This document shows positions 14,987 to 31,408 of a DNA stretch of 64,000 nt, piece after piece. Both the position numbers and the translations under genes were made by a program. Position 1 is the first letter of the stretch. Each line of letters begins with the position of its first letter. The notes below the pieces were generated by a model. That model was not told where the DNA came from. It worked only from the letters and a program-made list of their open reading frames with translations, and searched no databases. This stretch comes from Fragilaria crotonensis (taxonomy: Eukaryota; Bacillariophyta; Fragilariophyceae; Fragilariales; Fragilariaceae). The stretch covers positions 1 to 64,000 of the forward strand of contig JAKSYS010000035.1 of the NCBI GenBank assembly GCA_022925895.1, given 5' to 3'.

Positions 14987-15126
14987 GCCTTCGAGTTCTG
15001 TTCGTTCGTGTCGGCCTCCTTCCGTGATAGCTTCCTATTGTAGGTTGTAGCGTTATGGCGTCGGAATCAAGTCCTAGGAAACACTCCTCTCCCCGCTGAC
15101 GCCTCCCTCTCCCTCAGTACTGGGGC
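14987..15126 (-). repeat. Split direct repeat B2 (140 bp)
   Basis: Matches 15276-15415 over 140 bp with one difference (TAGCG here, TAACG there). Forms the 3' terminus of the retrotransposon. Confidence 0.93.
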
Positions 15127-15144
15127 TAAGGGCGGGTGGGTGGG

Positions 15145-15265
15145 AATTTAATTACTAGAGCTAGTCTTCGTCTTCGCCGTTTCCTTTCGTTGCGATTGTG
15201 ATCGCTGCCTCAACTCCTGACGTTGAGCCTCCGTCTGTCAGTCGTCCTTCCTCACGGACATCCCA
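15145..15265 (-). repeat. Split direct repeat A2 (121 bp)
   Basis: Matches 31288-31408 over 121 bp with no difference seen. Begins AATTTAATTACTAGAGC on plus and ends ACATCCCA. Confidence 0.93.
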
Positions 15266-15282
15266 CGAAGGCTCTGCCTTCG
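15266..15282. other. Hairpin at the A2/B1 junction
   Basis: CGAAGGC-TCT-GCCTTCG is a perfect 7-bp inverted repeat with a 3-base loop. It lies exactly between the A and B repeats, where circular intermediates of such elements are joined. A role as a recombinase core site is inference. Confidence 0.6.
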
Positions 15283-15415
15283 AGTTCTGTTCGTTCGTGT
15301 CGGCCTCCTTCCGTGATAGCTTCCTATTGTAGGTTGTAACGTTATGGCGTCGGAATCAAGTCCTAGGAAACACTCCTCTCCCCGCTGACGCCTCCCTCTC
15401 CCTCAGTACTGGGGC
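15276..15415 (-). repeat. Split direct repeat B1 (140 bp)
   Basis: Inner copy of the B repeat, one mismatch to 14987-15126. Confidence 0.93.
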
Positions 15416-15607
15416 GCCACTTTCACCAATCCTTCTTCGTCGACCTGGTTTTGGTTGGCCCACAGCTCCGGGCTGTCCAGGAGGTAACCGGGGCCCCGGG
15501 CGGCCACCGATGAACCTAGGGCGTCTCTCGCATGTCGGGTCGGTCATTTTCCCTGTCAATCGTGAAGAAGCTGGGATTCGTTGTCATATCGTCGGCGACT
15601 CCCCTCG

Positions 15608-16418
15608 TCATCTGTTGCACCTGTATTCGATATATCGCATGAACGTCTGACTCCGCCAGCGCCCGATCAGTTGAATCGTCTCCACCGGTACACCTGCAAG
15701 GAACATCGCCATCGCTGCGCCCGACCTGAGTGAGTGCGTCCCGATCCTGCTGGCTGGGAAACCCAGTCGCGTTTCTCCATACTGGATGGCGGCCGCTCGC
15801 AGATGTTGTAACACCTCTCCTGCTGTGATCGTCGTAACTCGTGCGCTCGATCCTGGGAGTTACCACCAGGTTCATCGGACGCGTCGTGACGTCTTTCCAC
15901 TCAGTGGCGTCGAGCTCGTAAGCAGATATCCTTGAAACAAGTCCAGCTAAGGCTCGGACTGGGCACAGCCCGGTTCCCGGATTCGCCCTCGTTCGATGCT
16001 GCGTCACGGTTACCCCGCGGTCTCCGTTCTTTTGCGTCCGATATGTGATTGAGACCGTGTCTGCCGTCGCTAGAACAGATTCAATGGAACTCTCGATTGT
16101 ATCGCCCCCGCGTCGGAAAATGATGTCGCCTATTTGCACTGTCTTAGTCCTCCGAGATCCGCTCGCCTCGGAGTACTCGCAAGAGCGCATCGCGAAGAAG
16201 AACGCTCCAGTCACGAGCTGGCCAATAGCTCGATGCGTCTCGGTCGTCTTAACTTGGGCCACCACCTCCACCACAGCCGCCGGCAGCGCTTGCCGTTGGC
16301 AAGGCTCTGGGTCGTCGAGTGCATAGCCTCTCAATTGCGCGGCCAAAAGGGGTTCGAGTCTTCCTCGTGAGTCGTGCGCTGGGCTGATAAGTTTGTTAGC
16401 CCGATAGGTCTGAACCAC
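15608..16418 (-). pseudogene. Tyrosine recombinase of the retrotransposon, frame-shifted
   Basis: The N-terminal part reads from before 16418 (RAAIDGVVQTYRANKLISP) through FFFAMRSCEYSE, which holds the first catalytic Arg. Around 15845 the frame moves by one base. The C-terminal part then continues as TTITAGEVLQHLRAA to GTHSLRSGAAMAMFLAG (the HxxR box), IGRWRS and MRYIEYRCNR, with the nucleophilic Tyr near the stop at 15608. All tetrad positions are present, so only the one-base shift breaks it. The 5' end overlaps the RNase H/pol frame in another frame. It would catalyse integration of the circular cDNA. Confidence 0.8.
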
Positions 16419-18386
16419 GCCGTCGATGGCGGCACGAACTGTGCCCGCCTTCCGTCCAGTGCAAGCTCCATAAGGCTCTCCGGCACTCGTCGCAGTCCTT
16501 CTGTCGTCCCGCCCGTCGTCATCACCTCCCGTCCATCCTTCCCTGATCGCTGCTGCGAAGCATGTGAGAACTTCGACTCGCTCCTCGGGCTGGAGGCGGG
16601 CGAGGAAAGGGTCGTTCCGATTCCCGATCGCATGAAGGAAACTCTGGAACCTTCCCCAGCTGCGATCACGCTGGGCGCGGGTTTCGATGGTAAAAGCTGA
16701 GTCCTGGGCAGCAGCTGCAGCAACGAGCCAACGTCCATAACGATTGCCTGCGGGAGAGGAACAAGACGAAAACCCTGTGGGATATGGTGAGATAACTTCC
16801 TCTTAATCAATTCGACCACTGCAGCGTCCTCTAAGTCGAAATCCCGAGACAGCACGTCGGCGACCGAGTTCTCCTTGCCGGGAAACCATTGCGAATAGTG
16901 CGTCAACTCGTGGTCAATCATGTACCGCGCCATCGTCCGAGCTATGGCTAAATGAAGGGGGCACTCGTCCCCGAAGCTGGAGCGGGCGATCCACCCGGTC
17001 GCCGAGGAACTGTCCCCTTGGCAAAGAAGGACATCGTCCTCGGCCCACGGCCCTCCGACCTGATGCTCCACCCAAACGCCCACCAGCGCCGCTAGGAACT
17101 CAAGGCAGTTCAAGGATCCGCGACCGATCCAGTCTGGCGGTAGAGGCAGGCGCCAGGCGATTCCGCTCTGGAGGCCATAGCCTCCCATCCCCTGGGGGCA
17201 GGCGTCTACTCGTACTATCCGAGTCGGCCAGCGGAAGACAAGACGGTTAATTGAAATCCCTTTGGCCGCGGCGTCCAAGAAAACCTCCCACAACTCAAGG
17301 TCGTCAACCTGGGATTCAGAGAGCCTAACCGATCCGCAAACTTGGGCTCGTTCGCTGGCGCGATAAAGGCGCCCAAGGAACGGTCGTGAGTTCGGGACCA
17401 CGTAGGCTGCGTGGTTTAGCCGGCCAATCGTCGTCTCTAACTCTTTTGCGTGGGCCCTTCGTCCGGGCAGCGACCTCAACCGTCGGAGCTCGGTCACCCA
17501 GGCTCGTCGTTTGTCCCCTGGGAGCGAAACCTTAAACGACCGCGTGTTGACATCCCAGCCGAGGATTGTTTTCCGCTCCGACGCTTTCGCTTCCGCGAGG
17601 AACTTCGACGCCGCCAGGAGGTCGTCTCTCGGAAACGACTCAGGCGATCGCTCGTCCACCGGACGTCCAACCAGGTGCAGGGCGAGAGGGAGCGCCGCCT
17701 CCGCTTTGTCAACGTCTCGGTCTCGAAAGACGCCGAACAAGTCGTCCAGGTAGCACTCGAACTTTGCCAGACCGTCGTCTACTGGGTCATTGACCGACAT
17801 AGCGAAAGCCTTCCCGAATTCGTCACTCGGACGAACATGCCCTTCGTCGTTGTCCACCGCTCTGCTCGTCCGCAGGACTCCTTGTTGGGGAGCGCTCCAC
17901 ACCGAGGTCCCAATCGTCTCTCCTCACGAGATCGTTCGCGAGGTCGGCAATTACTTCTGAGATGTCGCTCCACTGCGACGGGTTTGGGGCTCCCCCAAAC
18001 GTCATACGCAAGGCGACTAACAACATTCCCGCGATGCAAGTGCTCGACTTCAGAGCTGTCGTGGCTTTGAGGTGAACTCGCCGATAAGCTGACTTGAAGT
18101 CCACCTTCGTGATCAGCAGCCGATCCCAGGGGAACTTCCTCCTCAGCTTGCATGTGTAGTGAAGGAATCGTAGCAACGCTCGTCCGAATCGTGCTGGCGT
18201 CAGCCTGTCCACGTCCACCCTGTCATTGACGCTTCTTCTCATTCCCCGGGTTGCATTGAACGACTGATCATGCGTGAGTCTGAGCTTCGTCTCCTTTGTC
18301 CCGTCAGCTCCCAAAGTCGTCTGCGACACCACTCCTAGTGGCGCCACCTCGCAGTGAGGCAGTTCGAGCGCCGCCTCCTTTGGCAG
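16331..18386 (-). pseudogene. Reverse transcriptase - RNase H, 3' part of pol split by the nested transposon
   Basis: Starts at the nested element's right-hand (pol) side with PKEAALELPHCEVAPLGVVS, a DIRS-type RT opening. RT motifs follow: LRLTHDQSF, ITKVDFKSAYRRV (first catalytic Asp), FGGAPNPSQWSD and, after a one-base shift near 17880, the YLDDLFGV box. RNase H follows with RVDACPQGMGGYG, CLEFLAALV, GDSSSATGW and NSVADVLSRDF. Downstream is a Ser/Pro-rich linker that overlaps the recombinase frame. The upstream half of the same ORF is at 28225-28805. Confidence 0.88.
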
Positions 18387-18413
18387 CATCAGAAGGCCGC
18401 TTTTGTTAACTAT
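18387..18413 (+). repeat. Left terminal inverted repeat
   Basis: 27 bp, starts CATCAGAAGGCCGC and ends GTTAACTAT; pairs with 28198-28224 with a single C/T difference. Confidence 0.92.
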
Positions 18414-18890
18414 GTCAAAAAATGGTTACTTTTTGGTCGTAAGTCATTAATATATTGCCTTAAGTCAACATATAATAATCATAAGTAAGTATAGTCTTAT
18501 GATAATTGAATTTTATAATTTATGTTTCTACAATGTTTGTTTCTTTCCTCTGACGGTAAATAATCGGCAGTGAACATCTTCAATTTTCGATGAACAACGT
18601 TTTTTTTGTCATGGTAACTTAGACCATACTTTAAACAGATATAGTAACATATCTCAAGGCGTCAAACCAAACATAACATATTTCAATAAAATATATTGAT
18701 ATTCAAACATTTCTTTTACCAATCCATTATGTACGACTTCGTCATGCTGATTGTTGGTATGTCGTTTGACAAGGGAATTATATTCTCACCACCATATCTG
18801 GCAGTTCTTAAAATATTACATTCGCCTGATCAAAGAATTGTGCTCGTATTGCAACACTCTTCACTCGTTGTCTATCTTTAATCTACTACT
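18414..18890. other. AT-rich subterminal and promoter region of the nested transposon
   Basis: Contains AATGGTTAC at 18421, CATGGTAAC at 18611 and several TAAGTCA words that recur near the right end. Subterminal repeats are transposase binding sites in CMC elements; that role here is inference. Also holds the promoter of the transposase gene. Confidence 0.5.
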
Positions 18891-21800
18891 ATGTCGACAT
18901 CACTTTCTGAGGATTGTGCTGTTTGTGGGAAAAGTTTCAAGAGGCTTGGTGCGCACCTTGTGCGTAGTTTGGCATGTGGTTCTTATTACATGCCACGCCG
19001 CGCTGACACAGATGAGTGTCGTGAAAGTGAAGGCGCTGATCATGGCACCCGTCCGAATTTGAGATCCTCTTCGTATAGCACTCTCTTTCGTGCACAACGT
19101 GCAACTGTAAGAGGAGAGGCGGATGACGAGCCGCCAATCATCAATGTGAATGGAGTTGACGACGAAGACTTTTTTGTGATGGATGACGATGATGGTTTTC
19201 CGAATGACAATGTTGATGAGGAGGATGTCCCCAGTGATGCAAGTGAAGGCGAGGAAGGTCCGGATGCCGGTGTTTTGGACTTGTATCTGAAACTTTTCCA
19301 GCTGCGAGATAACCCGCTAGGTCTTGCGCGTTTTTCTCGGGAAGAGGAGGTCTTAATTGAGTTATTGCAGCTCCTAAAGGAGCTCCATTGTCCACTCAAA
19401 GCGTTTGAGATCATACTCAAGTGGGCTGCAAAATCAAATGGTAGTGGTCATACTTTCCGCGAGGGTTGTCAACCCAGTCGCAGCAAGGTAATCGCTAACT
19501 TGTACGAAAGGTACAACATGAACGGATTGATCCCGAAGGAGAAGAAATTGTACCTGCCTTACACCCAGAGAACAGTGTCCATGATTTACTTTGATGCCCG
19601 CGAAGTGTTTGCGTCACTTCTCTCATGTCCCACACTTAATCAAGACGAAAATTATTTTTGACGACGCAAAGGATCCATTCATCGCACCACAAGCATCGTC
19701 TGATGTTGGCGACATCCACACTGGTCGTTGCTACAGAAAGACATACGAGGCTCTAATAAAGAAGTTTGGCGTTGATATGCTGTTACCTTGCGTCATAGCA
19801 ATGGATAAGACACATATCGATATGGCAGGACGGCTCCAAATGGAGCCCATAACAATCTCACACGGTCTATTGAATCACACTATGCGCCGCCTCCCAAGTG
19901 CCATGCGCATCCTTGGATACATCAATCACAGCACCCCCGCGCACCTCCCAACTAGCGCAGATGTTGATTCCGATTTCAATTCTCCAGAAGATCTGGCGGA
20001 TGATGTTGTGCGAATCAAGAACCCAATTCATCCTCCCGCCAACGGTGATCTTAGTTGGGCAACGTTACTCCTCAATGAAACGCACATGCAGATTCAGTTT
20101 ATACTCGAAGAGTCTGGATTTTTGATTCTACAGAACAGTGGCTTCAAATGGAATTTGCATTACAACAACACCATTCACAAAGTGGTGTTCCACCCGTATG
20201 TACCTTTCATCGTCGGCGATACAGAGGGTCACGACCGTCTCTGTGGTCATTACACAGCAAGATTCATGGAGGTCAAACAGCTTTGCCGAATCTGTGAATG
20301 CCCCAGTTACTTGACGGGGTATTCGAAGTCAAAGTTCCCCCACCGTCTCCCGAAAAAAGTTGATTCCTTAGTGCAGAGGGGCTTGACTGCTGAGCTCCAA
20401 TCAATGTCTCAGAACTATCTCAAGAACGGGTTTGAAGGCGTCCGATTTGGCATGCACAATAAGCGCGGAATTTTTGGTGCGTGCCCAGGCGAAATGCTGC
20501 ACTTGATCTCGCTTGGTTGGTTTAAGTACTGCCTCCAGGCTTTCTCGGCTCAGGCCGGTCCCAAGTCCCAGGCATTGAAGGATTACGATGCACTGTGCGC
20601 CAAGTTGGGCTGCACCCTATCAAGGCAGAGTGACCGTGATGTTCCACGAACAAATTTCTCTCGAGGTTTTTCCTCTGGCTCCAATCTCATGGGACACGAG
20701 ATGGCGGGATGCCTTTTGGTGAAACTATTTGCATTGCACACGACGTGTTTCCGCTCCATCTTCAATGTTGGCAAGAAGGTCACCCCAAAAGAAGGGGTCA
20801 ACGATCAAAGGCTATGTTACAGCAATCATATCGAAGATTGGATAGTTGTCGTATCCTCCCTCCTGGTCTGGCACCAATGGATGAAGCAGCCAACAATCCC
20901 GAAAAAAATGGTGAGGCGCTCCCATGTTGCTGTGCAGTGGTTGATGCGGTTTGTCGCTGAAGTAGCACCTCGTCCTTCAGGCATGGGAAATAACACCATC
21001 AAAACGCACTTGGTCCTGCATCTGTGCGAGGACATTCTGGACCATGGGGTTCCAGAGAACGTGAACAGTTCGTACGCTGAATCAGCCCACATTCCTTGCG
21101 AAGATAACAACAAGAAACTCGCAGAAACGAGCTGTTTCTTTCACAAAACAAGCAGCCCATCGGTACGTTGAGAATCTCGCTGTATCACTTGCTTGGGCAG
21201 ATGTTGAGAGCGACAAAAGGCAGTGCCATACCAACATCAGGGAAGAAGAACCAGAGAGAGGAACCAGCAACCATCAATTCGACCCTGGACGTGAATTCCA
21301 CCTTGTGTGGAAAACTGGTGATGAATTCCCTCGTGTCGTTGGACACATGTGCGTAGCGGTCAGAACGCAGAGCCAGTCGTGAAACTTCCACCTTTGGTGT
21401 CAGTTTCTTGAAACTTCTGCCTGCCCCAAATGCCACAACAGTCTCTTCGGTGCTTTACCTCGTACACAGATGAAAGGGGTAACATGTACCGAGCGCATCC
21501 ATGTTATGACGGTAAACCTTGGAATGATTGCGCAATGATCGACTGGAAAGGGGAGCATGACCTTCCAGCATTCATCCATACATTCGTTGATCTGCGCCAG
21601 CTTCCGAGCTCAATCAGAAGAATTGAAGTGAATGGGCAGACAAGCGTGCAACCTGGATTGTACGCCGTTGCCCACACCTTTGACCCAGTTAACCCCACCG
21701 ACTTCAACACGCCCAATGTCCTCATAGGGCGTTACAAACCCCATTTTTATTCTCCCGACCACAGACAACCAACATTGTTCCTTGTGGATGTCAAGGCGAT

Positions 21801-22185
21801 ATCCTCGCCGCTACTTGGCACAGAAGACATCCCACCATTTGGAGAAAAGAAAGCGTCAAGGTGGGATCGGCATTACCTTTTCCTCATCAGAAGGAAAGTG
21901 GAATGGTCCCTTGCATGGGACGCAATAATAGAGCGGGAGCATAGTGATCTGGAAAACAATGTTGAAGATGACACCTGGTTCGAAGAGGATTACGAGACAA
22001 AAGATGTTGACCACCATGTCTTGCCCGGTGGTAGAGTCGTCTTCGGCGTGAAGACACCCGAAGACAACGCCAAGGAGGTGGCAGCAAAGAAAGCAGAAAA
22101 GCTTGCCACCAAAAAGAAGAAGGAAGACGAGGCAGCGGCCAAGAAACGCAAACGAGCTGCGGGAAGGGAGAACGTTCGCAAGTAG
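18891..22185 (+). CDS. CMC/Plavaka-like DDE transposase, frame-shifted in places
   Basis: The ATG at 18891 starts MSTSLSEDCAVCGKSFKRLGAHL, a zinc-finger-like N-terminus typical of Plavaka proteins, followed by an acidic stretch (19190-19270). At a T5 run (19655-19659) one base is missing, and the frame continues with FDDAKDPFIAP. The core has LLPCVIAMDKTHIDMAGR (first catalytic Asp in DKTH), IVGDTEGHDRLCGHY (second Asp, then CRICECP) and later EDWIVVVSSLLVWHQW. A further shift near 21130 leads into AAHRYVENLAVSLAWADVE. The C-terminal frame from about 21430 holds LRCFTSYTDERGNMYRAHP, ending in a Lys-rich tail at 22185. DDE family assignment is good; whether the breaks are introns, errors or decay is open. 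Confidence 0.75.
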
Positions 22186-22213
22186 TAGACTTATTTTTCA
22201 CGTTCTTCGTTTT

Positions 22214-23268
22214 TCAATAGTAACGTGCAGGTCTTCTCGCCCCCATACTTCGTCCTCCTGGTAACAACGAAGCGGTTAAGTCAACCGCCGCAGTAGCCCC
22301 CTGCACATCACCAGCTCTTTTTTTTCTTGGTACCGTGTATGCGCCACCAATTGCCAGGTCAGCTGCTGTAGGCTGTCTAGGTACGGCCTTTCGTTCGCCA
22401 TCAACACCACCCCCATTCGCAGAGGTCCCCATTCCTGGCTCCACTTGCGGTTTCCTCTTTCTCCCAACAAGGGAAAGCTGTCGAGACACCGTGACAACGT
22501 GCTTCGGCAAGCGCACACTGATGGGCTCGACAGCAGCTGCCACTTCAAGGGTGGCTGCCGTCGCGATCACCTCGTCTTCAATTGGGTTTTGGGCAACCGT
22601 CAATTCATCCCGGTGTTTCCGGCGGCGCCGACGTTTTCGGTTCAAGCGCTTCTTACTGGGCACCCTTTCCCTCCAAGGATCGGGTCGGAGAACAGGCCGA
22701 TAATTCGCAGCACACCCAGCACGTCCAGCCTGAACGATCTTTTCCTTGGCGCAGGTGAACACCCCGTAGAGGGTGTTCACGAAGGATGTAGAATCCTTTG
22801 CAACACCAACGTAACCGCTGTCCAAGCCATCAGGACATGAAACAGACGTGCAGTGCCTTACAATCCTGCCATCCCAGCTGATCGCGATTCCGTGGCCAAG
22901 TTTTATGGCCAAACCAGTGAACTTGGTTCCATTCGGTCGCTTGCCTTCAACATTGGGCATGATGAAGTACCAGTTCTCCCCCCAGCCAAGCATCTCCTCT
23001 GTCCAACAACTGTACCCCTGCGAGGCATCGTTAACGTCAAAGTGAGACGAGTTACCCAGGTTATAACTCAGGTCGATAGTGTACGCAACCCGTCGCCGAC
23101 GCTCCAACACCGCAAGCAGCCCCCTGATTTTCCTGCTTAGGAAATCCAGGCGGCGGGCGTTGGCGGTATTGGCCTGCGTCTTCTTGGCCTGGGCATCGGC
23201 CAACAAACGAGCAGTGGTGAAGAGATCATCATCAACAACGCCACAGTTGTAGTTGCCGCCGTCATCCC

Positions 23269-23305
<37 letters not shown>

Positions 23306-25272
23306 GTCATCGTCATCGTCGTCGTCGTCGTCGTCATCGCTGTCGGAGTCGTCCCAACCAAAGGCAACGCCATCCATTGGTGCCACCGGGCTCAAGCCAG
23401 AATTCACCTCCGTGTCTCTTATCACAGAGTACACCTGGGGGAAGCAACAGCTCCCGACATCCGCCAAGTCCACCACAAGCCCGCGGACGACATCCTCCCC
23501 AACAATCGAGTTTGCAGCGTACGGAACCTTGTCGTGGACAGCGGGACAATCGACAGAATCGCCCTTCTTCACGGTGATCCTGGTCCCAATTGCAATCATC
23601 CCCCCAACATCAGAAGACTTCGCCCTCGCAGTGCCCTTCCCACCGGCAAGTTTAATTGCACTGCACCTCTCCGTAAGCTCATCCAATAACTGCTGTCGAT
23701 CATCACGGGGGTCCATTTTCCCAACGTTCCTCACCATGACAACCGACACCCGATCCGGGATCTCGTCGATGGCGATGTGCACGTCAACGAAATGATGCAC
23801 GTTGGGGTCAATAATCCAGCAAGACTCCGGAAGGTCAGTGTGACGGGCCCCGTCCACGTAGTGCCGACAACCCTCCCTTGCACTGGAGGAAGCCTTCAGC
23901 CGGTCAAGGTATTCGTGGGCGCGGTAGTCGGAAGGAACATCCCGATAGTCCATGCCGCCGATGAAGTCTGGGGGGGAGCAGGGGCAACTCTCCATCCCCT
24001 CCCTGGCTTGCCCGGTACACCAACCGTACCTGCTGACCCGGGAGCACTCGCCCAGTCGAGAGCCTCCACGCCGACACTTGACGGGTACCACAAGGCAATG
24101 TGGTATCAGAATAAAACCGCTGCACATAGCTGTCATCACCAAAGGTGTACGATGGCAAACAGTGCTCCGATTCAGTCCTGACCAAGCGAAGCCAGCTCAT
24201 GTCGTAAGCCCTCAATGTGCCCTGCAGTCCAGCATCACCAGCGTGGCGATCACGACTGCAGTAGAAGACCCCACACTGGGGTAGGAAGAGGATCACCGCC
24301 CTGAACTGGTAATCCCCATCCGGTGCCCCATCGTCAGGGATGTACGACTGGGCGTGACAAACCGCATGGCCGCCGCCCGATGCAGCAGTCAAAGGAGCCG
24401 ACCGGCGGTTCACGATAACGTCCATAACGTAGAATTCGTTCAAAAAATTGGACTGCATCCCCGATTCGGGGAACATGTCCGCAATTGAACGCAGTCGGAA
24501 CGGCTCCCACCCAAATGCAGTTGCAACCACACGGATCGGCGTCCGACCACCCAAGAACCCACCGACCAGCCCGCACTCCCCCCGGCGCACTCGCCTTCTT
24601 CGCACGTCGGAACCGTCGCCGGAACGCACGCCTTTCTTCCGGTACGACAGCCATGGACAACAGCGACATAACCGACGAGGAGTCGGAAGACTCTCTCTGT
24701 CCCACGCCTGGAGGAGGCGATTCCGCCCCGTCCACGATTGCCTGCGACCCCAAAACACGGGGCGACTGCCCTAGATTCCGAACGGACATCGCAGTCGGCA
24801 TCGTCCGGTTCCCCGCGGCACCCTTCTCTTCGACAACGTCGAATCTACCCTTCCGCGACCGCCAACCCCCGTCGACTGGATGACATTGTTCGGCCTTCTC
24901 CTGCTGCCTGGCAGGTAAGGTCCGCGCGACGCCACTTCGTTCGACAAGAATGGGATGGTGATCACGCACCACGACGAGGAGACAACCCAACACCAGACCA
25001 ATGGCAACAGTCGCGAGCGCGTCCTCCTCCCGTACTCTTCGTCCACAAAAACGACAATCAACCCGCTGCCTGGCGAGGACTGTGCAGTTGTTGCAGAAGA
25101 AACGCACGCGGCAAGAAAGGATCGACAACAACGCAAGACCACTGACAACAATTGCGAGCGCGTCCTCCTCCCGTACTCTTCGTCCACAAAAACGACAATC
25201 AACCCGCTGCCTGGCGAGGACTGTGCAGTTGTTGCAGAAGAAACGCACGCAGCAAGAAAGGATCAACAACAA
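22214..25272 (-). CDS. Passenger protein with zinc-finger duplication, poly-Asp and C-terminal domain
   Basis: Convergent to the transposase, with only 28 bp between the two stops. The main frame 24142-22214 (about 640 codons) contains PPDFIGGMDYRDVPSDYR, an Asp run of more than 30 residues (23265-23341) and a conserved-looking block WTEEMLGWGENWYFIMPNVE followed by KLGHGIAISWDGR. It ends with basic RKRRRRRKHR. Upstream pieces lie in other frames: FPESGMQSNFLNEFYVMD (about 24430) and two copies of a CxxC-x9-CxxC finger (FCNNC...DCRFC) at 25013-25272. Joining these into one protein is inference; shifts near 24150 and 24550 would be needed and the start codon is not certain. Function unknown. 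Confidence 0.55.
23265..23341. repeat. CAT/CGT trinucleotide repeat coding poly-Asp
   Basis: Pure (ATC)n grading to (GTC)n on plus; in the minus gene this reads GAT/GAC, an Asp run interrupted by one Gly. Confidence 0.9.
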
Positions 25273-25277
25273 CGCAA
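25013..25277. repeat. 141-bp tandem duplication encoding a paired-cysteine motif
   Basis: GCGAGCGCGTCCTCCTCC starts at 25013 and again at 25154. The shared part is about 124 bp, nearly identical. On minus both copies encode a CxxC-x9-CxxC motif. It lies at the 5' end of the passenger locus. Confidence 0.88.
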
Positions 25278-25479
25278 TGATCGGGCGAGAGGCTTCATTG
25301 AATGTTCTGATTCAATGGAGGTAATGGTGCAATTCTGGTGTCAGAAATTGCATACCAGGCGCATACGACATGGTACACACAACTCTAAGGGACTCCACAC
25401 CTGGGACTTTATTGCAAGCCCTCTAAATAAATTCGATTTTTATCTAACAAATAGACGCTATATTTATTTATGATACGAA

Positions 25480-26224
25480 TATGTGGATTCGATATTAAGT
25501 CAATAGTACTTCAATGCAAATACACCAAAACCATTGAACAACACAGAACACCAATATTTCAATAAGTGCGTTGACTTTATTATGCATGTATAATATATTA
25601 CTTTCCCAGGACCGTAGTATGCACTGTAACAGCGCTACAATACTACACTGTACATTGTGTAAAATTGCGCACATTTAGGAATCTTGTATCCAAAAGTCAT
25701 CATGTCATGTATCATGCCCTAAGTACAACAAGTCACATGTATAGAATTTTTTGGCTATGTATAGCATTTATTAAAAGTATATGAATGGAATGTATTTTTA
25801 GTCGCCAATAACAAGATTTATTGACGTGATTGAAACGCAGGACACTGCAACTTATACCATTACGTGTACAACGATGTACACAGTACCTAGTATGATGCAT
25901 GACACCGAGCGAGTACAGTCCATGTGTACCATATATGTATTTGAAAAGCAATACATATCCATATAAGATCATAGAGTAAAAAACGGTGGATTATGTATTA
26001 AATGTGTATGTACATTCAAACAAAATAAAAGCATACATTGTTGTAGTAAATTGACATGTTTGGGATAAAAAAGATACGATATAGTCGTGTAAAGTGAACT
26101 TCAAGCAAACATAATATTGCAATAATTGATCCATCTCTCATTTTCAATTGATGCGATCTAAAATACAACTTGTTGCTTTCGCTAACACTTCGTCTTGTTG
26201 CTTGCTCTATTCCCTTTTGTCAGC
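25480..26224. other. AT-rich spacer between the divergent passenger loci
   Basis: About 750 bp, strongly AT-rich, with ATACATAT-type words and short frames only. It probably contains the promoters of the two divergent passenger loci; no core promoter can be pinned down. Confidence 0.4.
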
Positions 26225-27880
26225 ATGTCAAATCCACAGAATCCTGCTCTAGCGTCGCCATCTCAGAACCTTCGGAGTTCTTCGCGACGCATTCGCGAAC
26301 CACCAGCTGACCAAACACCCGTTCGCGAAACACCGTTGGAGCGTGCCGCAGGAGAGAGGCAGAGAAGAAGAAGGCTGAAAGACGTGCAGCTAAAGCAGCT
26401 AAGGCAGCTAAGGCAGCTGAGGCTGCTGAGGCAGCTAAGGCAGCTAAGCAGCGGAAGCTGCTGCAGCAGCTAAGGCAGCAGAGGCAGCGGAAGCTGCTGC
26501 AGCAGCTTCTACGCAACGGAAACGAGTTGTTGGCGCGGGAACAAGAGGAAATATAGACAGAAAAAACAAAGGAGTCCAAAAAACGAAAACAACAAAGTGC
26601 ATAACACCTCGTCAGATTCTGGCGACATTGAGTCGGCGGATGATGATTCTTGTTTTGAACCCACCGATGGCGCTGAAGACGAGGCTGATGATGACGACGA
26701 CGACGACCAGGCTGATGACGACGACAATAATGATGACGGGGCAGAAATTGATTCTTACGTTTCAGCAAACTCATACCTTGACGACGACCCATTGGCATCG
26801 CCGGAGGAAGGTAGCGGTGCCCGCGAAGCTACTGAAGAGTCGAGACGCAGTGCCCAGGCAGGCGCAGTGAATCCTCTGAGGACAAGCAACAGCGAGGAAC
26901 ACGGTACGCCACCTCCACCACCGGCGAGCTGATTCCAGGGAAATTGTTAGCAGGATGCCGTTGGAAGCTCCAACAGCACAGAAGAATGTTGTACGGAGGA
27001 TTGTTTTGTTTGTTAAAACACACTCTTCCGTCAGATCAAATTCGTTACCAGTACCAAGTCATTTAGCGAAGCTTTTCAAAAGGTGCTGGCGGAGGAAAGG
27101 CCACGGAATCCATACATATTTCAGTTGACGTACCAGAATTCGTTCAAGACGGCCTTGAATCAGAAGCGAAGCACGTGTGAGTTGTCTGGCAAAAGATTGT
27201 GGTCAAAGCTATCAATACAGTGTTCAAGAATCGTGAAGAGGAATTCTTCACTTTTGATGAATTCTGCAAGCTAAGACGAGCGACTACCGAAAGAGAGAGG
27301 AAAGCGTTTCTCTGGTTCTTCGACAGTTTTTGGAGTGTGTTTGCGGGGCTACCGCATGGAATAATGCGAAAACAAAGCAGCTCGCTTCGAGGCAAGAGAC
27401 CCCAGTGGATCAAAAATTGTCAGTGTGAGTGATGAAGCATTTGCGTTGTTGTTAATTGACAATTACTTGGAAAAGTGGAAAACCAGGGCTGGTGAAGAAG
27501 TCGCAGCCCGCATCGACTCGGTAGCAGGTGGCGCAGCTGCAATTACGACTGAAGGTGAGGAGATCACGAGAAGGAAACAAACAAAGACAGCCGGTAAATA
27601 CACTGGAAAAGCTCAAGGACAGTGTAAGTGGGGTGGCTGGAGTCCCGAAGGCATCAAACAGTTCAATTTTCTTCGCAAGTTAGTGAAAGCAGACAGGGAG
27701 GCTGACAAGAATTGTGACGACGAGCCGAAACGGATGGAAAAGTTGCTGATGGATTTCTGCCGGACAAAGGCCGGAATAAAGGACCCACAGGATAACGCAA
27801 ACCTAGACGGTGCTCACAACAATGCAGCGGCACGGGCAATGGAAAATGTTGAGGCAGAATGGGACTCTGATGACGACTAG
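26225..27880 (+). CDS. Second passenger protein: Ala/Lys/Glu coil, acidic middle, Trp-rich C-terminal region
   Basis: The ATG at 26225 starts MSNPQNPALASPSQNLRSSS. After a shift comes a repeated AAKAAEAA segment (26386-26505, helical), then KRVVGAGTRGNIDRKNK. Another frame follows with an acidic stretch (DDSCFEPTDGAEDEADDDDD, 26640-26720) ending at 26932. Coding-like sequence resumes with EEEFFTFDEFCKLRRATTER (27235-27300) and, in a final frame, SDEAFALLLIDNYLEKWKTR to GQCKWGGWSPEGIKQFNFL and a stop at 27880. The last block looks conserved. I do not know the function; two or three frame changes are needed, so this could be several exons or a broken gene. Confidence 0.5.
26386..26505. repeat. 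Degenerate GCAGCTAAG-type repeat
   Basis: Runs of GCAGCTAAGGCAGCTGAGG; encode alternating Ala-Ala-Lys/Glu in one frame. Slippage-prone. Confidence 0.8.
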
Positions 27881-28197
27881 GAGTTTGTTTTACTGCCATC
27901 CACTTAAAATGCAATAGAATGACTTTCGTATGAACAATATCTGTTGTATTAAGATGAATAACCTAATCAAATAAACAACATAAAATGTAACTTTGACTTA
28001 ACATGAATTGCAAAATTACAATATATGTCGTTGACTTGAGTAAAAATAAATGGTAACTAAAGCGTGCTTTATTTTAAAATAAATTATCCAAACTTACAAT
28101 ATATGGTAGAAGTAGTATTTTATTGTTCAAGTTAACATTTCTGTTAAGAAGTAAAATCTAACTGATAAAAAAATGGTAACACTTAACACCAAAGAAA
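27881..28197. other. AT-rich right subterminal region of the nested transposon
   Basis: AATGGTAAC occurs at 28049 and 28172, with GTTAACATTTC and GTTAAG words near the terminus, mirroring the left end. No gene. Confidence 0.5.
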
Positions 28198-28224
28198 ATA
28201 GTTAACAAAAACGGCCTTCTGATG
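28198..28224 (-). repeat. Right terminal inverted repeat
   Basis: Complements 18387-18413; outer end CGGCCTTCTGATG, followed by the AG duplicate at 28225-28226. Confidence 0.92.
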
Positions 28225-28805
28225 AGCGGAAGTTGCCATCCTCGTTTAACCTCGTCTTTCAGCATCTCCAGCAGCTTGGCCTCGTGGCCCCGGGCCGATT
28301 TATGATTGCCGCGGGCCAAGCTGGCTGCGACGTCCGCAAGACGGTCAGCGTCAGAAATTTCGAGAAGGGGGAACTCGGCCCCGTCGGTGATGCGCTCGGC
28401 GAAGGCCGGCCACAGGGGATGGCGCGAAAGTAGCGGCGCCAGTATGTGGGCCGACCGGAATTCCGAACCGGGCGACAGCGTCGAGAAAGGTTGTGCCGCG
28501 AGAGCGACTCGGAGATCCCCCGCATAACGTCGGAGAACGGCGAGGTTATTTGCGGCGGCGGCAGGCGTCCATTCAAAAACAAAGGCGGTGGGGTGCGTGC
28601 GTGGTTGTGGGGCGTCAAGGATCGCATGAAAAACGTCCGAGAGAGTCGATCGAGGCAACGACGGAAATACGGCGCCGGGAGGCAAACGAGGGAGGGGAAC
28701 GAAGGACTTACGTGGGGGGGTTGCAGCCGAGGGCGCCTGCGTCAACACCGAGGTCGTGCGCGTCGGAGTCGTCGGCGACCGAGGGGGCGTCCGCGAAGCG
28801 GGCAA
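28225..28805 (-). pseudogene. 5' part of retrotransposon pol, cut by the nested transposon
   Basis: Frame from an ATG at 28805: a Pro/Arg/Thr-rich leader, then TAFVFEWTPAAAANNLAVLR and GSEFRSAHILAPLLSRHP, ending KDEVKRGWQLPL at the junction with the nested element. These are the segments that precede the RT domain in DIRS-like pol proteins. The reading continues in frame at 18384 once the insertion is removed. Overlaps the 3' end of the gag-like frame by about 60 bp. Confidence 0.82.
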
Positions 28806-31265
28806 TAGCGAGTGCGATCGAGCGAAGAAACGTGGTGTCGGGGGGGGCGAGCACTTGTAAGAGTAGGCGGGGCGAGCGAAGCGAGCGAAGGGTCCGTCGG
28901 AGAACGAGCGGCCCGCGCGACGTGACGAGGATAGGCGAGCGCGGGCGCGCTCGTATCCCGCGTCGAAGCGTGCAGCCGTGCGGCTGCAGAGCGTGCGAGG
29001 AGGCCGTTGGCCACGTCTATGGTCGGGTCCGGGGAAATCCCCGGTACAGCGGCGGGAAGAAAACTGTACGCGTTATCAGATTGGCCTACTAGTTTGGGTT
29101 TCTTTGCTGCGTCCGCCGACTGCCGACTCGGCATGCGCGTCCTGCAGGACTCGATCCATTTGCCGAGCGCCGTCGTCTGCTCTCCGGTCAAGGCAACATG
29201 CGACGCCCGGAAAAAACAAGTGTCGTTGCAAATGCCGTTCAAGTGATATCGGCAGCAGAGGTTGGGCACGGGAGCCTCCTTCGCGTGGTCGAGCCAGGAA
29301 CACTTGCCAGACGTCGCGACTCGTGATCTTGAATAAGCGTCCGCTTGGGTTACGCACGGAGTTCGTAGGGTAAGCGCCGCCGGCTTTGCCGGGAGTGCCG
29401 CCCCCCCCTGCGTTACGAGTGGCGTCCGATGGGCCGAGTTTTGCCTGGAGGTACGGACACAAAGGGGGGAGGAACATGCCGTCCTCCAGGTGTTGGCGCT
29501 CGGCCTGAAAGTCGAATAACGTCGAGTTGACCGAGTCGATATGGCCACAACTCGCGCAGGACGTGAGGTACTGCTGAATGCGGCGTTCGACAAACCATCC
29601 GAGTCGGCTGGGAGCTGTCGCGTCCTGGAAGGCAAGGCGTCGAAGATTGGCGACGGTCGTGCCTCCCGTTCGGGTTAGGAAGTGCACCCACGATCCGAGC
29701 ATCAGGGTGATCGGCGCCGCCGATCCAAAAATAAGCTCCGTCACCCCTGCCATGTTCTCAAAGAGTTCGGCGAGGGCGCGAAAGTCGCGAGGCACCACGT
29801 GTCGCACGAGAGTTAGTTTCTTGATGTCTTTGTCCGACAAGCCCGTCGTCGAATCAGCAACCTTCAGCTGCATTCGCATGAGATCGTCCGCAGCGTCGGC
29901 GTCGTCCGCTCCGCCAGTCAGCGACTTCTTGTCGAGCGGCTGAGGTCCGCAGGAAAACAAGCTAAAGGCTTCTGGCCGGTCGTTCGTAGTAGCGATGAAG
30001 GAGGCCATCCGCACTGCGGAGCAGAATCCGGATGGCAACCAGACGTCGAGTCCCAAACGAGTCTTCAGGTGATGGTGCAAATGTTGGGCTACGTAGGCCG
30101 CGTTCGTCAGTCCGAGAATCTCCGTGTACGTATCAACTGGTGTCGCCCGCGACGCCCCTGCTTCGTCCCGCTCGGATGCAAACAATATCATTTGTTGGGT
30201 AGTGATGGGAAAGGCGTCGAATCCCTTCTTGACTACCGTCGTCGCGGCTCCTTTTGCCGTTGCCTTGATCGCAAGAGCATTAGCCAAGTTCGTCCAAACT
30301 TCGGCTCCCACCGATGCGACCCCGTGCGGGACGACCACGCGAGCCGAGGGGCTCTCCCGGGTCGTGGTATTCGTGGTCGGCCGCAAATAGCGTTGGTGTA
30401 CGTCGCTCGCCCACAGATCCGCTCTCTTACTAAAAGCCAGGCTCGTCCCGATGCCCTTCGCCTGGCCTTGGGGAACTGCTGCTCGTTGGGTTGCGTGGTT
30501 CCAGAGCCAGATCGGCACGTAAGCCGCCTTCAGCGCGGCAGGGGATACGACTGGATCCTGACCGTCCTCTGTCGCTCTGTTCCGAATTGCGTCAATCGCT
30601 CGTAGGCAGAGGTCACCAGCGTCCGAAGTGTACGCTCTCATGAGCGCGGCCACAAGAAAGCCTGGAAGGGGGAGAACGTTGGGCAGCGCGATTGCTGCTC
30701 CCACTCCCGCCTCGGGGTCAATGTCGTCGTCCTCGTCCTCGCTTTCAGTGAACAAGTCCGTGTCATAGTCTTTAGGCTTCTTCGTTTTCTTGGCGCCTTT
30801 CTTTGCTTTGCCCTTGCCTTTCGTCTTTCCTTTCGTGCTTCCTCCCAGAAGCTCATTAGCTTTGGGGTGCGTAAGCGCGACGTCCCCTATCTCGGTCCAG
30901 TGGACCATTCTCGACCACTCGTAATTGAATCCGGTCTGCTGGTCGTACGTGCCCGTAGTACTCAGTACGACTGTCGCCGCAGTACTGCCAGCCCCGATGA
31001 GCGCCCAAATGTCCGCCTCGTCGTCGTCGTCGATGTCGTCGTTTCCGTCTTGATGTACGTGATGGATGATTTGGAAATCACCGCCCTCGTGGGCGATGAG
31101 GTGTCCAATTTTTGGGGAGCAAAACCGACGGAAACCCGCTACGGTATTGATCGCCTGTGCGTGGCGACCGGCGAACGTTGCAACGGCGTCCCACTGATCG
31201 AGGTCCTTGAAAACGTCGGCCCATGTCTTAGGTGTGTCAGAGTTGTCGTCCGCAGAGGTCATCAT
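28742..31265 (-). pseudogene. Gag-like ORF of the retrotransposon with a CCCH-type zinc knuckle, shifted at a G8 run
   Basis: The ATG at 31265 starts MMTSADDNSDTPKTWADVF. A long soluble protein follows, with a Lys-rich region (KGKTKGKGKAKKGAKKTKK) and an acidic patch. At a run of eight C on plus (29401-29408) the frame shifts. The continuing frame encodes NLCCRYHLNGICNDTCFFRA-SH (spacing C-x8-C-x3-C-x5-H), a knuckle that is common in gag-like proteins of stramenopile DIRS elements, then a Pro/Arg-rich tail ending at 28742. It would package the element RNA. The homopolymer break could be an assembly error. Confidence 0.75.
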
Positions 31266-31287
31266 GATCGGGGATAAAACACGGGCC

Positions 31288-31408
31288 AATTTAATTACTA
31301 GAGCTAGTCTTCGTCTTCGCCGTTTCCTTTCGTTGCGATTGTGATCGCTGCCTCAACTCCTGACGTTGAGCCTCCGTCTGTCAGTCGTCCTTCCTCACGG
31401 ACATCCCA
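31288..31408 (-). repeat. Split direct repeat A1 (121 bp)
   Basis: 5' terminus of the retrotransposon; identical to 15145-15265. The gag-like start codon lies 23 bp downstream in the element's orientation. Confidence 0.93.

Follow-up and report, generated by a model that had tools for sequence, protein, structure and literature searches.

A young transposon, very probably of the Plavaka family, nested in a retroelement of the diatom Fragilaria crotonensis

A retroelement pol gene in Fragilaria crotonensis is interrupted by almost 10 kb of other DNA, which raises the questions of what this insert is, how it arrived and whether its genes are to be trusted. The locus lies in a window of 64,000 nucleotides (the whole stretch of DNA that was analysed, from contig JAKSYS010000035.1), and the genome searched for related copies comprised 62.1 Mb in 881 contigs. 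Silicon transporters mark the host as a diatom: the family gave 19 matches in this genome, 18 of them above the cut-off and the best with an E-value of 4 × 10−193; one control genome, that of Bacteroides ihuae, was matched below the cut-off. As a side observation, three silicon transporter domains lie in one open frame of 1456 amino acids at C97:29749-33762.

Borders, empty sites and sister copies

The inserted element spans 9838 bp on the plus strand (18387..28224). Its inverted ends (CATCAGAAGGCCG...) are 27 bp long and match at 26 of 27 positions, the left one beginning with CATCAG (18387..18413, plus strand) and the right one finishing with CTGATG (28198..28224, minus strand). The dinucleotide AG stands on both sides as the left (18385..18386) and right (28225..28226) copy of a target-site duplication. 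The coordinates, the 27-bp inverted ends and the AG flanks given by an earlier, sequence-only reading of the window were exact. In a search for subterminal repeats, ATGGTAAC was found three times in the outer 500 bp on both sides of the element, and the maximum for subterminal 7-mers, six, was within the range of shuffled sequence. Two directly repeated units of about 155 bp with 94% identity (24981-25136 and 25124-25277) also lie inside the element, upstream of ORF2 (see below), and are matched in sister copies as well.

The interrupted host retroelement was delimited by self-comparison to 14987..31408 on the minus strand. Its repeats (14987-15126, 15145-15265, 15276-15415, and 31288-31408) form a split direct repeat on that strand with identities of 139/140 and 121/121 bp. 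The window pair spans 6.4 kb after subtraction of the transposon and one AG, and the second repeat recurs in pairs elsewhere, with spans of 6.5 kb at C597 and 8.6 kb at C383. We take the split direct repeat to be a feature of DIRS-type elements and presume that motifs recognised in the host-element frames are those of a reverse transcriptase and a tyrosine recombinase; Pfam names neither of the two, and for the recombinase there was one weak PHROG match of unknown function. The near-identity of the outer repeats had been reported correctly by the sequence-only reading. With their split direct arrangement, which resembles that of DIRS-like elements, these repeats are not LTRs. The pol region lies in this element.

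Natural empty sites of the insertion were found with the 200-bp flanks. The left flank had four matches in the genome, the window and three others, and the right flank 40 in all; the right-flank matches that had no left-flank match at the sensitivity of the search are uninformative on empty sites. Both flanks were matched, besides the window, at C364 (96 and 93.5% identity) and at C597 and C383 (about 83 and 87%). All three loci lack the insert: the matches to the left and right flank have exactly 2 bp in common, a single AG occupies the insertion point and QLPLPKE is read in an open frame across it. C597 and C383 resemble each other over the part compared, so that they may not be independent. 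The proposal that removal of the element and one AG restores pol in frame at QLPL-PKE, with a 2-bp duplication, agrees with the three uninterrupted host copies, and the retroelement was already in place when the transposon entered its pol region.

The other copies of the element tell the same about the duplication. The left end was matched at at least 18 places and the right end at at least 21, and in 15 copies both ends could be paired. Identical 2-bp flanks were present in 13 of these 15 and identical 3-bp flanks in none, while among 210 control pairings of ends from different copies the 2-bp flanks agreed 17 times (binomial P about 6 × 10−13). The duplicated dinucleotides vary (AG, TA, GA, AA, AT, AC, and CA, CT twice, and TG four times). 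The two mismatched copies, C16 (TA/GA) and C1 (CG/CA), are each one base off, which could be due to later mutation, assembly error or recombination. On the evidence of the empty sites and the 13 copies, insertion duplicates 2 bp. The borders of the element are proven in three ways, by its ends, by the 2-bp duplication and by natural empty sites.

Transposases of this sort recognise the ends of their element, make a staggered cut and leave a gap for repair. Here, the transposase would recognise the CATCAG...CTGATG ends and, with hardly any preference for sequence, make a cut with a 2-bp stagger into which the element is inserted; gap repair would then duplicate these 2 bp. The window element would in this way have landed in the resident pol region.

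The copies differ widely in length. Six are about 9.8 kb long, and C503, with 4.6 kb, carries an internal deletion. Six others of 2.5 to 2.8 kb (C458, C445, C87, C476, C197, and C182) retain the ends and some of the right half, the matching pieces being 65 to 85% identical, and show no transposase match; all six are flanked by 2-bp duplications and they form a non-autonomous group. Two copies are oversized, C392 with 16 kb and C156 with 26 kb. Cargo was considered for these, but nested insertions are likelier, since the extra sequence examined, which lies outside the middle of both copies, looks LINE-like by eye. Finally, C96 and C723 had no right end matched and are outside the 15 paired copies; they have one flank in common and are therefore probably a single insertion seen twice.

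Age of the element and its broken frames

Over the first 8.4 kb, the six full copies differ pairwise by 11 to 59 substitutions (0.13-0.71%), which bears out the view that the transposon insertion is young. The same comparison revealed 30 to 65 indels per pair, mostly of one base. ORF1, the transposase gene (18882..22185, plus strand; identified by comparing its middle piece with the Pfam Plavaka family), is split by frame breaks into three pieces, 18882-19661, 19585-21171, and 21412-22185. The element, called complete in the sequence-only reading, is complete in its ends but not in the sense of whole genes: the transposase is broken in the window and in the five sister copies.

The breaks could be real and the whole family dead, which we regard as rather unlikely. 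A single-frame transposase is indeed present in none of the six full copies, and in seven of the 15 pairs of near-identical copies the indels are not in excess of the substitutions (equal in two, fewer in five). On the other hand, the indels, mostly single bases, do exceed the substitutions in the remaining eight pairs, and the positions of the breaks differ between copies that are otherwise nearly identical. The assembly of F. crotonensis SAG 28.96 is described, in the available part of its report, as based on nanopore R9.4.1 reads with Pilon polishing by short reads (PMC9476933), and the window sequence probably comes from this assembly. Since indels rival substitutions, the breaks differ between copies and nanopore R9.4.1 is the probable source, the broken frames are most likely due to errors made in assembling near-identical repeats. 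Transposase relatives from other families in the genome have open frames of up to 1188 amino acids. Assembly error being the preferred explanation, the integrity of genes in young repeats of this assembly should not be taken at face value. As a reference copy, which the sequence-only reading had suggested, the element serves for its ends and its duplication and not for its genes, with the transposase in three frame pieces and residual assembly indels likely.

Assignment to the Plavaka family

The transposase, the ends and the duplication were each compared with what is known of related families. Against the Pfam Plavaka profile (PF18759), the middle transposase piece of the window scored 21.3 bits, below the cut-off of 26.3, and it is absent from the genome-wide list of matches to this profile; copies of the same family scored above the cut-off (C1 30.9, C33 30.2, and C508 27.0 bits). 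The genome has 80 Plavaka matches, 76 of which are marked as above the cut-off, three of these only jointly with their neighbours. All four transposases that we aligned match Pfam Plavaka, with a best E-value of 9.9 × 10−7. In this alignment a C(2)C motif, C234 and C237, is invariant in four of four sequences and lies between the second D and the last E, both of which were assigned by eye. H291, H306, and H371 are invariant too, and an H(3-4)H pair does not show up clearly in these four sequences.

In the accessible sections of Kojima 2025 (PMC12730594), PlavakaB of Agaricomycotina has the termini CATCA..TGATG and Plavaka duplications are given as 2 or 3 bp, whereas EnSpm has CAC..GTG ends and 3-bp duplications. 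The window element has the ends CATCA..TGATG and a 2-bp duplication, that is, PlavakaB as printed. Because its ends, its duplication and its transposase all fit, we conclude with good confidence that this diatom element is a cut-and-paste DNA transposon of the Plavaka family and a young copy.

It is improbable that the element is instead a CACTA/EnSpm or Mirage transposon of the CMC group. CA..TG ends and C(2)C motifs are common to all the CMC-group relatives, CACTA/EnSpm included (PMC12730594, as far as available), and the Pfam Plavaka score of the window piece is modest. However, the termini are CAT..ATG, not the CAC..GTG of EnSpm, a 3-bp duplication was seen in none of the 15 paired copies, and Pfam named all four aligned transposases Plavaka. 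The label "CMC-like" from the sequence-only reading can accordingly be refined to Plavaka; whether Plavaka is placed inside or outside CMC is called uncertain in the part of PMC12730594 at hand.

Compared with PlavakaB, with which it shares the ends, the 2-bp duplication and a Plavaka transposase, the Plavaka element of the window differs by its diatom host, by a convergent ORF2 and a third gene, ORF3, and by having no recognised TET/JBP gene. Outside Agaricomycotina, the available texts place Plavaka in Rhizophagus, in Auxenochlorella (PMC12633428) and in Amoebidium (PMC11244446). Auxenochlorella is likewise a non-fungal host, in which Plavaka is polymorphic, and so is Amoebidium, where the repeats consist of clustered genes next to a Plavaka transposase; for these two hosts, the available text mentions no ends and no duplications. 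In the literature searched, with Repbase and most subscription journals outside the search, no description of a diatom Plavaka was found.

Companion genes and CpG decay

Two further genes lie downstream of the transposase. ORF2 is convergent to it (22214..24770, minus strand; pieces 22214-24196 and 23904-24770) and has 111 matches in the genome. ORF3 (26186..27880, plus strand) is likewise in pieces, and its last part, 27365-27880, with which the search was done, has 170 matches. Grouping of the matches gave 51 clusters for ORF2 and 66 transposase loci outside the window element's own family. ORF2 was found within 8 kb downstream on the opposite strand at 23 of the 66 loci and on the same strand at none (about 0.2 by chance), and ORF3 within 16 kb downstream on the same strand at 44, two loci on C367 having one ORF3 in common (about 0.9 by chance). 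Both genes are present at 19 loci; 43 have no ORF2 and 22 no ORF3, through loss, divergence or the limits of the search. ORF2 and ORF3 thus accompany the transposase at many related loci. That they are chance frames or captured host sequence, for which one could cite that neither has a notable family match and that both are broken in the window, is very improbable because of this recurring layout, and among the matches listed (for ORF3, 150 of the 170) long frames are preserved in relatives that are 40 to 70% identical.

To get an idea of what ORF2 encodes, its conserved core (22718-23098, minus strand) was aligned in four sequences. H19, D21, and H82 are invariant in all four and form an HxD...H arrangement, a short pattern and not proof, and no invariant arginine stands out after the last histidine in these four. 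Fe(II) dioxygenases bind their metal with HxD...H, a pattern that the available part of PMC12730594 describes for TET/JBP. None of the four cores matched a Pfam family, and the TET/JBP profile PF12851 had no match in the genome and likewise none in 14 control genomes. Sequence and profile searches of Pfam, NCBIfam, PHROGs, and PDB gave nothing for or against ORF2 as a TET/JBP protein, and single-sequence fold models, with pLDDT values of 34 and 35, were too poor to show a double-stranded beta-helix. No relatives of the core in viral contigs were confirmed. Among the candidates rejected, a PDB profile match to glycoprotein GP1 (E-value 0.15) was taken as chance, and matches to CDC45 and Nop14 were taken as compositional, since they overlap an aspartate run in ORF2.

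The six young copies also allowed the decay of an older one to be followed. Over the first 4.8 kb of the element, C96 differs from their majority at 126 of 4759 positions. With this majority taken as ancestral, C-to-T changes are seen at 41 of the 478 cytosines in CpG and at 18 of the 1819 remaining ones (Fisher P 4 × 10−16), and 32 changes run the opposite way. C723, probably the same insertion, has 40 C-to-T changes at CpG and 17 elsewhere; C281 has five and six (P 0.06). C96 is an old insertion with strong CpG decay, which is likely to be the mark of methylated cytosine. In the diatom Phaeodactylum, depletion of methylation and overexpression of young transposable elements accompany the loss of DNMT5a (PMC9998398, in part), and in F. 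crotonensis 48 mobilome genes are up at high pH (PMC9732472, likewise).

Taken alone, the window element is a neat instance of a type already known, to which the recurring cassette and the methylation-like mark add something. What is new is the three-gene layout of transposase, convergent HxD...H gene and third gene, common to many relatives. We infer that ORF2 and ORF3 are of use to the element: ORF3 might be a partner that binds DNA and ORF2 an enzyme that counters silencing. A close parallel is with the TET-bearing Plavaka elements of Agaricus and Gymnopus (PMC12730594, in the portion available), which are likewise Plavaka with an added gene, and the HxD and later H of ORF2 follow the Fe(II) triad pattern; in contrast to those elements, ORF2 is tied to TET/JBP by no sequence or fold evidence. 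As a speculative proposal, more doubtful than probable, the Plavaka elements of diatoms would make up a large lineage whose three-gene cassette is fixed. ORF2 would be a novel enzyme dependent on Fe(II) and at most distantly related to TET, which the transposon uses against host CpG methylation and which it gained separately from the TET genes of Plavaka in fungi. Should ORF2 indeed counter silencing, then transposons in two hosts far apart would have answered one and the same problem with different genes. The Plavaka family, so far recorded mostly from mushrooms, gains a diatom branch with a recurring gene set.
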